The notes under the pieces were generated by a model. The model was not told the DNA's origin, did not search any database, and was given only the letters and a program-made list of their open reading frames with translations. The position numbers were made by a program, and so were the translations under genes. From Terriglobia bacterium (GTDB taxonomy: Bacteria > Acidobacteriota > Vicinamibacteria > Vicinamibacterales > CAVVIG01), in NCBI GenBank assembly GCA_020073005.1, contig JAIQFX010000013.1, forward strand, positions 1 to 64,000: a stretch of DNA of 64,000 nucleotides. Reading direction: 5' to 3'. Below are positions 13,860 through 58,215 of the stretch, one piece after another (positions within the stretch are counted from its first letter, which is position 1; each line of letters opens with the position of its first letter).

Positions 13860-14616
13860 TCGATTCGCTCGTCAGCGCGGTCGCGCGGCGCAGCAGGTCG
13901 AGTTTCCGCCGGCGGGCCTCCACGAGATGCCCGCTCAAGTAACTGTTCGCCGGATCGCCCGCCAGGGCTTCACGCGCCTGGGCGATCGCTTGATCGATGA
14001 TCTGCAGGTTGTGCTCGACGATGGCGATCGTCGACGCGTCGAGCCGCCCGCGGCCCTGCTTGAGCGCCTTCTCGAGGTCGGCGACGGCCGCGTCGTACTG
14101 CGCGTCGGCATAGCCGACCTGGGCGATCGCTGCTCCTGACGCTGCGTCGCGATCCGGCGCCGCCAGGAGCGCCGGCGCCGACGCATCACGCGCGCCGTCG
14201 CTCGGCTGCGCGCCGGCGGCCGCCGTCGCGGCGCTGTTCGTGTTCCGGCCGGACCGATCCGCGATCTGCCACGCGACGCCCGCCGACACCGCCATCAGGA
14301 CGACGGCCGCGGCGGCGAGTTGCGGCATCGTGAACGCGAAGCGAACGGGGACGGGCCGACGGAAGGGGACGCGTGTCGAGTGATGTGTGCCGTCGACACC
14401 CGTCCCCCTAAACTGTGCGGCGATGCCGGCCCACAGGTCGGCCTGCGGAGGACGGGGCGGCATGCTTTGCGCCTGCGCCACGACGCGCTTCAGATCGTTG
14501 AGCACGGCGCGGCAGTCCGCGCAGCCGCGCAGGTGCTGTTCGACCGCCTCGCGCTCGGCGCCGCCGAGCTCGTCGTCGAAATAGTCCGACAGCTGGTCCG
14601 TCCATTCCTCGTGCAC
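13855..14616 (-). CDS. zf-HC2 anti-sigma factor
   Basis: A 253-residue membrane anti-sigma factor. The N-terminal zinc-binding domain has His28-x3-Cys32-x2-Cys35 (HLRGCADC). A linker and one membrane helix (near residues 95-112, QLAAAAVVLMAVSAGVAW) follow, then an Ala-rich periplasmic part and a C-terminal helical region (ALAGDPANSYLSGHLVEARRRKLDLLRRA). I start at GTG 14616 because GGGGG lies 5 bases before it and it follows the sigma factor stop by one base; a GTG at 14628 is also possible. The linker before the membrane helix is encoded by a REP-like palindrome (14365-14407). It should hold the upstream ECF factor inactive until an envelope signal. Confidence 0.85.
   Translation of the reverse strand: MHEEWTDQLSDYFDDELGGAEREAVEQHLRGCADCRAVLNDLKRVVAQAQSMPPRPPQADLWAGIAAQFRGTGVDGTHHSTRVPFRRPVPVRFAFTMPQLAAAAVVLMAVSAGVAWQIADRSGRNTNSAATAAAGAQPSDGARDASAPALLAAPDRDAASGAAIAQVGYADAQYDAAVADLEKALKQGRGRLDASTIAIVEHNLQIIDQAIAQAREALAGDPANSYLSGHLVEARRRKLDLLRRATALTSESN
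14365..14407. repeat. REP-like palindrome inside the anti-sigma factor gene
   Basis: The arms GGGGACGCGTGTCGA (14365-14379) and TCGACACCCGTCCCC (14393-14407) pair at 14 of 15 positions around a 13-base loop. A further GGGGACGGG copy lies just before it at 14347. The core resembles the perfect palindrome at 38608-38653. It encodes the linker between the zinc domain and the membrane helix. Confidence 0.65.
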
Positions 14617-15169: not shown

Positions 15170-15252
15170 CGCTACGGTTGCCACGGTACCACCGTTCAAC
15201 CGATTGGATGGAGAGGGGTTGAAGAAGGTTGAAAGAGCTGAGGGCTGAGGGC

Positions 15253-18359
<3,107 letters not shown>

Positions 18360-37546: not shown

Positions 37547-38880
37547 CGCGTTCGCTCTCCGATCTTCGTACTGACCTCCTGGGCATTGTCCGGGCCGGCA
37601 TTCGCGCGTGCGACGCGGCCGAGATGACTCGCTTCAGACTGGCAGATCTCGACGCGGCGCAGGGCCGTGAGGGCAGCGCGGGTCTCGACCGCCAACGCTA
37701 CGTTTGTATCGCCGCTGGAAAAGCCGCGGCGCCGATGGCCAAGGCCGCGGCGAGCGTCCTCAAGAATCGGCTGCGCGCTGGCCTCCTCGCGGCGCCGGCG
37801 GCGGAGGCGTTCGGCAGTTTCGACGCCATCCCGGCGGGGCATCCGGTCCCTGACGCGGGGAGCGAGCGCGCGGGGCGGCAGGCGCTGGACATGGCGGCCT
37901 CGCTTCAGCCGGACGAAACGCTCCTCGTGCTGTTGTCCGGCGGCGCCTCGGCGCTTCTCGCCGTGCCGGCCGACGGCCTGTCGCTCGACGACAAGCAACG
38001 CGCGACGGTCCAGCTCCTGAGGGCCGGCGCCGACATCCACGCGCTGAACACCGTCCGCAAGCACCTGTCGGCGATCAAGGGCGGATGGCTCGCGAGCCGA
38101 TCGGCCGGTCCCGTGCGAACGTTCGTCATCTCCGACGTCGTCGGCGACGACGTGAGCGTGATTGCGTCCGGGCCGACGGTGCCGGACCCATCGACGTTTG
38201 CGGAGGCGCGACAGCTCCTCGATCGTTACGGCGGCGCGCCGGCGTATCCGGCGGCCGTCGTCGCGCGGCTGGATCGGGGCGCGCGCGGCGAGGTGCCCGA
38301 GACGCCGAAGCCCATGTATCCGCGTCTGGTGCGGTCCGACATCAAGGTCATCGGCAGCCGGCGCGACGCGATGCTTGGGGCGCAGGGACGCGCGCTGGGT
38401 CTGGGCTACGAGGTCGTGCGGATTGAGGAGCCGGTGATCGGCGAAGCGCGCGTCTCGGCGCTCGCGCACGTTCGGGCTGCGGTCGCGTCGGCCCAGGATC
38501 GGCCGAGGCCGCTGTGCATCGTCTCCAGCGGCGAGACGACGGTCAACGTGACCGGGCACGGGAAGGGCGGCCGCAACCAGGAGTTTGCGCTGGCGGCGGC
38601 GGAACTCTTGGGGACGGGTCTCGGGTCGTCCCCAGGCCGAGACCCGTCCCCAATGGCCCTCGCCAGCGTCGGCACCGATGGCGTCGACGGTCCGACGGAC
38701 GCAGCCGGGGCGATGGTCGACTCGACCACGATCGCGCGCGCCGAGCGCGAAGGGCTCCGGCCCGATCGGTTTCTTTCGGACAACAATGCCTACGCGTTTT
38801 TCAGCGCGCTGGGCGATCTCATTCACACGGGGCCGACCGGCACCAACGTCGGCGACCTCCAGGTAATTCTGTTAGCCTAG
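37543..38880 (+). CDS. Glycerate 2-kinase (GckA/TtuD, MOFRL family)
   Basis: About 445 residues. It phosphorylates D-glycerate to 2-phosphoglycerate. The N-terminal DUF4147 domain shows CIAAGKAAAPMAKAA, LSGGASALLAVPADGLSL and RKHLSAIKGGWLA. The C-terminal MOFRL domain has SSGETTVNV, GGRNQEFALAAAE and ASVGTDGVDGPTDAAGA. The first ATG (37624) would remove a conserved-looking helix (LRTDLLGIVRAGIRACDAA). No ATG, GTG or TTG exists upstream before a stop at 37456, so I propose CTG 37543, which overlaps the previous stop as CTGA. A perfect 17-bp palindrome lies inside the gene (38608-38653) and adds a Gly/Ser/Pro loop before ASVGTDG. Confidence 0.82.
   Translation: MTRSLSDLRTDLLGIVRAGIRACDAAEMTRFRLADLDAAQGREGSAGLDRQRYVCIAAGKAAAPMAKAAASVLKNRLRAGLLAAPAAEAFGSFDAIPAGHPVPDAGSERAGRQALDMAASLQPDETLLVLLSGGASALLAVPADGLSLDDKQRATVQLLRAGADIHALNTVRKHLSAIKGGWLASRSAGPVRTFVISDVVGDDVSVIASGPTVPDPSTFAEARQLLDRYGGAPAYPAAVVARLDRGARGEVPETPKPMYPRLVRSDIKVIGSRRDAMLGAQGRALGLGYEVVRIEEPVIGEARVSALAHVRAAVASAQDRPRPLCIVSSGETTVNVTGHGKGGRNQEFALAAAELLGTGLGSSPGRDPSPMALASVGTDGVDGPTDAAGAMVDSTTIARAEREGLRPDRFLSDNNAYAFFSALGDLIHTGPTGTNVGDLQVILLA
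38608..38653. repeat. REP-like perfect palindrome inside glycerate kinase gene
   Basis: The arms TTGGGGACGGGTCTCGG (38608-38624) and CCGAGACCCGTCCCCAA (38637-38653) are perfectly complementary over 17 bp around a 12-base loop. It is read in frame as a loop (LGTGLGSSPGRDPSP) between the two conserved MOFRL blocks. The core is shared with the palindrome at 14365-14407. Size and structure resemble REP elements mobilised by RAYT transposases; no RAYT gene is in the window. Confidence 0.7.
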
Positions 38881-46224: not shown

Positions 46225-46287
46225 GAATTGGGAATTGAGAATTAGGAATTAAGAATTCTTCACTCTCAATTCTCCATTCTTAATTTC
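46225..46287. repeat. Inverting heptamer repeat tract downstream of groEL
   Basis: Nine 7-mers: GAATTGG, GAATTGA, GAATTAG, GAATTAA, GAATTCT, then TCACTCT, CAATTCT, CCATTCT, TAATTTC. The second half is roughly the reverse complement of the first; AATTAAGAAT (46247-46256) and ATTCTTAATT (46276-46285) are perfectly complementary. It is AT-rich in GC-rich DNA and lies between the groEL stop and its terminator. Confidence 0.8.
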
Positions 46288-57684: not shown

Positions 57685-58156
57685 CCCGTCGCGGCGTCGT
57701 CTTCTGATTCCGCTCGCCCTGGCGACCGCGCTCGGCGTGGGATACATCCCGTTCGCGCCCGGCACGTTCGGGTCGGCCGCGGGATTGCTCCTGTGGGCCG
57801 TGCTTCCGGCCTCGCCGCTCGTCCAACTCGCCACGATTCTGGCGCTCTTCGTCCTCGGATCGTGGAGCGGCAGCGTCGCCGAGCGTCACTTCGGCCGGAC
57901 CGATCCTGGACAAGTCGTCCTCGACGAGGTCATGGGCATGCTCATCACCTTGTTCATGAATCCTGTCGGCGCCTGGGGCGTCTTCGGTGCATTCCTTCTG
58001 TTCCGGATCGCGGACATCATCAAGCCGTTCCCGGCGAACAAGCTGGAGCGCCTCCCGGGCGGCGTCGGTGTCATGGCCGACGATGCGATGGCCGCGGTCT
58101 ACGCCAATCTGGCGTTGCGCCTGGCGCTGGCATTGGGTAATAGAGTATTCGGGTAA
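57662..58156 (+). CDS. pgpA: Phosphatidylglycerophosphatase A
   Basis: A 164-residue membrane phosphatase removing phosphate from phosphatidylglycerophosphate to give phosphatidylglycerol. Motifs YIPFAPGTFGSAAG, DPGQVVLDEVMGM and FRIADIIKPFPANKLERLPGGVGVMADD are typical. The GTG start at 57662 lies inside the RDD gene. The last residues (LGNRVFG) and the stop codon come from an octamer repeat tract, so the native tail may have been changed by the tract. plsY and gpsA, also for phospholipids, lie downstream. Confidence 0.92.
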   Translation: MSSEPPRSPSRRRLLIPLALATALGVGYIPFAPGTFGSAAGLLLWAVLPASPLVQLATILALFVLGSWSGSVAERHFGRTDPGQVVLDEVMGMLITLFMNPVGAWGVFGAFLLFRIADIIKPFPANKLERLPGGVGVMADDAMAAVYANLALRLALALGNRVFG

Positions 58157-58215
58157 TCTGGTATCGAAGACTCCGTTCGATTACTCAATTACCCAACCAC
58201 CCAATTCCCCGATTC
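58133..58215. repeat. Inverting octamer repeat tract between pgpA and cinA
   Basis: The left half has TTGGGTAA, TAGAGTAT, TCGGGTAA, TCTGGTAT. A loop, CGAAGACTCCGTTCG, follows. The right half has ATTACTCA, ATTACCCA, ACCACCCA, ATTCCCCG, ATTC and then the cinA ATG. TCGAA...TTCGA pair perfectly at the hinge. The pgpA stop is in the third unit, and cinA has no ribosome-binding site because the tract occupies that place. Confidence 0.8.

Follow-up and report, generated by a model that had tools for sequence, protein, structure and literature searches.

Protein-coding palindromes of Rickettsia have long been known, and to our knowledge what moves them has not been identified. In the sections of the review by Di Nocera (2013, PMC3733652) drawn on here, Rickettsia elements and other intragenic REPs are described as sitting in frame within genes, the Rickettsia palindromes occurring in unrelated genes (including dnaE, a ligase and helicases) where they encode an extra peptide, and the CGTC-type elements (including RPE-4 and RPE-6) are given no associated transposase. 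REPINs, by comparison, are extragenic: conserved inverted arms, formed by GTAG-type REPs, enclose a poorly conserved spacer, compensatory changes preserve the pairing, a RAYT transposase is associated with them, and they are larger than the hairpins described here, with 71 bp between the 16-mers in P. fluorescens (Bertels & Rainey 2011, PMC3116915). A further relevant group is the TIRYTs or TIRtrons, Y1 transposases flanked by terminal repeats (TIRs) that start with GGGG and can form repeat families and dimers, including an Acidobacteria group (Di Nocera 2013, PMC3733652; subclass 2.1, Quentin 2018, PMC6006769); intragenic TIR dimers receive no mention in the sections of these two papers drawn on here.

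The hairpin described below, found in a 64,000-nucleotide stretch of DNA (the window), belongs to a family that combines REPIN-like design, TIR-like arms at a transposase and an RPE-like location. As in REPINs (PMC3116915), there are two inverted arms, a variable spacer whose length and pairing are important, and a single-copy Y1 gene bounded by the same arms; unlike REPINs, 94% of the hairpins lie in coding frames, the arms start with GGGGAC and lack GTAG, and the loop is about 12 nt. As in the Rickettsia elements, one palindrome is found in frame in many unrelated genes and is absent from orthologues, although sequence, host and size differ from those described in the same sections of PMC3733652. 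About 100 intragenic hairpins occur in a quite different bacterium, one that also encodes a candidate Y1 transposase whose gene carries these arms, and a similar system with different arms exists in a sister genus; the spread of repeats inside genes becomes testable in this setting.

The hairpin in the glycerate 2-kinase gene

A preliminary description had reported a 17-bp perfect inverted repeat with a 12-base loop, in frame in a glycerate 2-kinase gene between two blocks of the MOFRL domain, and had read it as a likely mobile or recently inserted element. Repeat and position proved exact: the 46 bases at 38608-38653, just before the conserved GTDG block, comprise two 17-base arms (left, TTGGGGACGGGTCTCGG, 38608-38624; right, 38637-38653) that are 100% complementary, and the gene reads across them as ..AAAEL[LGTGLGSSPGRDPSP]MALASVGTDG.. 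(Table 1). One correction applies to the arm length: of the 17 bp, 15 form the arm common to the family, and the 2 outer base pairs vary between copies. Folded as single-stranded DNA, the hairpin had a free energy of -23.2 kcal/mol (z = -5.1), a stability equalled in 0 of 200 shuffles. The exact 17-mer pair was found again at C132:39080-39125 in the same genome (G000), which also holds 36 hairpins of the form GGGGACGGGTCTC-N-GAGACCCGTCCCC compared with 0 for a reversed-pattern control; the palindrome is therefore not a product of chance.

Table 1. Positions of the hairpin parts, host gene and second family member in the window
Feature	Position	Strand	Remarks
gckA-type glycerate 2-kinase, 418 aa	37624..38880	+	DUF4147 and MOFRL (Pfam); open through the insert
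Outer dinucleotide TT	38608..38609	+	Pairs with AA at 38652-38653; variable from copy to copy, complementarity usually kept
Left 15-bp arm, GGGGACGGGTCTCGG	38610..38624	+	13-bp core plus inner GG
12-nt loop, GTCGTCCCCAGG	38625..38636	+	Different in almost every copy, but A or G is favoured at the first position and G at the last
Right 15-bp arm	38637..38651	+	Reverse complement of the left arm
Outer dinucleotide AA	38652..38653	+	Pairs with TT at 38608..38609
Second family member, TGTC type, slightly decayed	14365..14407	-	GGGGACGCGTGTCGA / TCGACACCCGTCCCC, one mismatch

Comparison with other GckA proteins (closest solved structures, 1x3l and 2b8n) showed that the insert is not conserved in the family. 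Among the 26 relatives with a readable linker, the NQExxL-GTDG linker was 17-18 residues long in 25 and 22 in one, compared with 26 in the window, and the insert in the one exception was both shorter and different. The absence of the insert from 25 of the 26 relatives, together with the many copies elsewhere in the genome, supports the mobile-element reading. The extra protein loop that had been proposed for GckA is indeed in frame, but the net gain is 8 residues and not the 14-15 encoded by the hairpin. Within the genus, the insert was absent from gckA of congener G022 (88% identical), and gckA of the more distant congener G023 (67%; L300 / L133) carried a near-identical hairpin at the same codon as the window. 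Judging from these sequences, either the site would have been struck twice by insertion, or one copy would have been cleanly lost.

A dispersed family in coding sequence

The family was counted in G000, a single 5.86-Mb MAG (completeness 100, contamination 4.6) whose congeners here are groundwater MAGs that carry the label Acidobacteria bacterium. The exact 13-mer core GGGGACGGG(A/T)(C/G)TC occurred 206 times (reversed-pattern control, 0), and 72 perfect hairpins were found, divided evenly between the TCTC type to which the window's hairpin belongs (36; arm GGGGACGGGTCTC) and an AGTC type (36; arm GGGGACGGGAGTC). TGTC-type and decayed copies were also present, and, with most of the 206 cores paired, we estimate the family at close to 100 hairpins. 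The window's second member is read in frame within a gene whose product may be an anti-sigma-like membrane protein (a name guessed from sequence); next to it, at 14347, is what is left of a further arm, GGGGACGGGCCG. Some hairpins are nested, with one arm pair inside another (L087, L088, L089 and L098); in L087 and L098 there are 6 nt per side between inner and outer arms.

Open frames whose base composition was that of coding DNA held 58 of the 62 hairpins with flanks, which is similar to the background for random 42-nt windows (317/338). All three start phases were represented (24, 23 and 11 copies). The uneven counts hint that the reading GDGSR..RPVP is less tolerated. The sequence of the arm cores contains no stop codon in any of the six frames, so hairpins can persist within genes. 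Host genes, named by inspection of their sequences, included putative dnaE, a DEAD-box helicase, an ATP-dependent ligase-like gene, thrB, alr, purL and mutS2, and one large helicase gene (C119) held several copies. In this way the hairpins add new loop peptides to important enzymes, among them the putative dnaE, DEAD-box helicase, ligase, thrB and alr products. At other sites, congeners either had decayed copies in common with G000, or were empty, or had unrelated palindromes in the same linker; the copies in common indicate that part of the hairpin population is old.

The anatomy of stem and loop was assessed in 49 isolated perfect hairpins. The outer two base pairs varied between copies and were complementary in 40/49 and 41/49 (expected 13.5 and 15.1), and the inner two positions were complementary in 48/49 each, whereas the next position inward, the first of the loop, paired in only 1/49 (expected 15.4). 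Such a pattern is characteristic of a stem in which pairing counts at the ends and the identity of the bases does not. With variable bases kept paired next to a first loop position that is nearly always unpaired, the data suggest that the hairpin is selected or processed in its folded form. Loop ends were also constrained: A or G was favoured at one of them, G at the opposite one (3.64 bits compared with a null of 1.98, sd 0.14). Apart from these ends, the loop differed in nearly every G000 copy, and similarity among G000 loops was no higher than among shuffles except in a neighbouring pair on C60 and a weak C20/C148 pair. The C60 copies (C60:13857/14023) are 166 bp apart and have different flanks, and share 10/11 loop bases and the AA/TT outer bases.

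A candidate transposase bounded by family arms

The preliminary description had suggested a likeness to the REP palindromes moved by RAYT transposases and a search for a Y1 gene. G000 has four Y1_Tnp genes, of which one, G000:C106:14091-14606, lies between purN and purM and encodes a protein with the motifs HWH and YVERN, the latter containing the tyrosine. This gene is bounded on its upstream side by an AGTC hairpin and on its downstream side by two AGTC arms. Pfam detected only Y1_Tnp in its product (P0001, 172 aa) and no C-terminal HTH domain, and neither PDB sequences nor PHROG gave a match; against the NCBI REP-transposase model NF047646 (REP_Tyr_transpos) it scored 68.7 bits, below the cut-off of 80. 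A second Y1 transposase, L194 (G000:C124:14659-15084), has palindromes of its own (GGTCCGACCCC, 20-22-bp arms) and is a separate system.

Relatives of the C106 transposase were found in G016 (60%), G010 (52%) and G021 (48%), each with other terminal repeats, and purN was again the neighbour in G016 and G021, and apparently in G010. The G016 relative, from the sister genus, is bounded by the TIRs GGGGACGGGAGCCCTTTT, and the G016 arm, GGGGACGGGAGCCC, formed 30 hairpins in G016 and 0 in the other 26 of the 27 family genomes searched. The relative in G010 also has terminal repeats, but the search pattern applied retrieved no exact hairpins from that genome. AGTC-type hairpins were likewise abundant only in G000 (36, compared with 4 in G022, 6 in G023 and 1 in G001), and in the congeners without a C106-type gene perfect TCTC and AGTC hairpins numbered 2 + 4 (G022) and 1 + 6 (G023) compared with 36 + 36 in G000. 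The arm populations are thus genome-specific and track the transposase. The correspondence between transposase ends and genome-specific hairpins in two genomes is the best evidence for the mechanism proposed below. The window's arm is of the ..TCTC.. sub-type and the arm at the C106 gene of the ..AGTC.. sub-type; as our searches yielded no transposase gene with TCTC arms at its ends, we infer from the common GGGGACGGG half and the common stem design that the C106 enzyme also moves the window's sub-type.

How far the likeness to REP and RAYT systems extends differed between features. A conserved inverted arm pair, a variable spacer and compensatory pairing are all present, as in REPINs, and a single-copy Y1/HUH gene is bounded by the same palindrome, as in REP/RAYT systems, both in G000 (C106, AGTC-type arms) and in G016 (own TIRs). 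However, the unpaired GTAG (GTRG) tag is absent from the arms, which are GGGGACGGG(TC/AG)TC with varied flanking dinucleotides, and the hairpins are intragenic, which, together with the NF047646 score below the cut-off, led us to reject formal REP status. A strict TIRYT assignment was rejected since the arm starts GGGGACGG (G000, G016) and GGGGTCGG (G010) do not match the motif GGGGWSAS, position 7 being G and not A, and the 172-aa product lacks the C-terminal HTH of subclass 2.1. Membership of the CGTC-type REPs, which have an unpaired CGTC end, a stem of 8-9 bp and a loop of 4-5 nt, was rejected on stem length (15-17 bp), loop length (mostly 11-14 nt) and the position of CGTC within the stem; G000 also differs from the CGTC-type elements in having a candidate transposase with the same arms. 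Given that the tags of REPs, CGTC-REPs and TIRYTs are lacking, we have not filed the hairpins under any of these classes.

Insertion outcomes and competing explanations

We consider it probable (roughly 0.8) that the window's palindrome is a hairpin that is mobile but not autonomous, with the Y1 (HUH) transposase of C106 as candidate mover, and that its insertion replaces or encloses host DNA. The mobile unit, about 45 nt long, would consist of two inverted 15-bp arms, outer pairs that vary and a short loop of variable sequence. Its arms, folded as single-stranded DNA, would be recognised by a Y1 (HUH) transposase of the single-strand type, for which the C106 gene product is the candidate; the enzyme would copy or move the hairpin, and a short host stretch would be replaced or enclosed at insertion, giving a net gain of about 24-33 nt. 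Within genes, only in-frame outcomes at linker positions would survive, read as Gly/Ser/Pro/Arg-rich peptides (GTGLG..RDPSP, GRVS..ETRP or GDGSR..RPVP), and tolerance of linkers may explain where the hairpins are found.

The replacement step is suggested by the lengths of orthologues. Although the hairpins measure 38-43 nt, the net gain per insertion at single-element sites with length-conserved outgroups was 24 (gckA), 27 (C171), 30 (helicase C119:51562, 5 orthologues; C9) or 33 nt (thrB; C122:59622), and two nested hairpins in the C12 ligase-like gene together added 60 nt relative to 3/4 outgroups. Plain insertion of the whole unit into unchanged host DNA was therefore rejected, and host codons would have been replaced or enclosed: some 5-20 nt of host DNA give way to the unit, or arms alone are added around host codons. 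In the latter case, which we regard as unlikely though it deserves weighing, the transposase would flank about 12 nt of native DNA with one 15-nt arm at each end, so that the loop is made of host codons and every insertion adds 30 nt in frame, however long the loop. The gains do centre on 30 at the length-conserved sites, frames stay open even in the 26/58 coding copies whose length is not a multiple of 3, and some loops resemble host residues (VGGA and VPGA at C119:51562; ALDG and AIDQ/AVDQ at C122:59622). However, several gains miss 30 by one or two codons, and loop-host similarity over all loci was not significant at either the DNA level (congener orthologues, p = 0.32) or the protein level (p = 0.15), and was suggestive only in the length-conserved subset, which was chosen afterwards. 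Loop ends are moreover conserved among copies, and some copies have a loop in common (the two in C60, and about nine hairpins in G016), which indicates that the loop can travel with the arms and leads us to prefer replacement. If the arms alone were mobile, they would constitute a half-element whose loop is supplied by the host gene at each site, and which spreads through coding sequence with the genes left intact.

Template switching, a known route for making and repairing palindromes, would copy a single inserted arm into a nearby reverse complement by fold-back replication and would keep the arms identical. It would account for the complementarity of the variable bases at both arm ends within each copy; however, the extents are too regular (outward extension of exactly 2 bp in 32/49 copies, loops of 11-13 nt in 43/49), the exact cores listed are nearly all in opposed pairs and seldom single, and the spread of one arm sequence over the genome is left unexplained, making this route very improbable. 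That the hairpin is a conserved functional structure under selection (an attenuator, structural RNA or protein motif) and not mobile would fit the constrained stem and loop closure, but this can be practically dismissed given the unrelated host genes, the use of all three phases, the empty sites in orthologues, and an arm sequence that depends on the genome and follows the terminal repeats of the transposase.

At L140, L166 and L120, G022 has unrelated palindromes (e.g. GGCGGGTCCTTTTGGACCCGCC and GGCCGAGCTTGCTCGGCC) where G000 has GGGGAC hairpins, and, from the sequences at these sites, certain linkers look as if they were insertion hotspots. The window itself contains palindromes of different sequence at 15233-15275, 46226-46285 and 58133-58196 (GGGCTGAGGGCT / AGCCCTCAGCCC; AT-rich GAATTGAGAATT; TTGGGTAATAGAG). 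The sequence AGCCCTCAGCCCT was also found in gene linkers of relatives (L153, L265), suggesting that more palindrome families may be mobile in this group.
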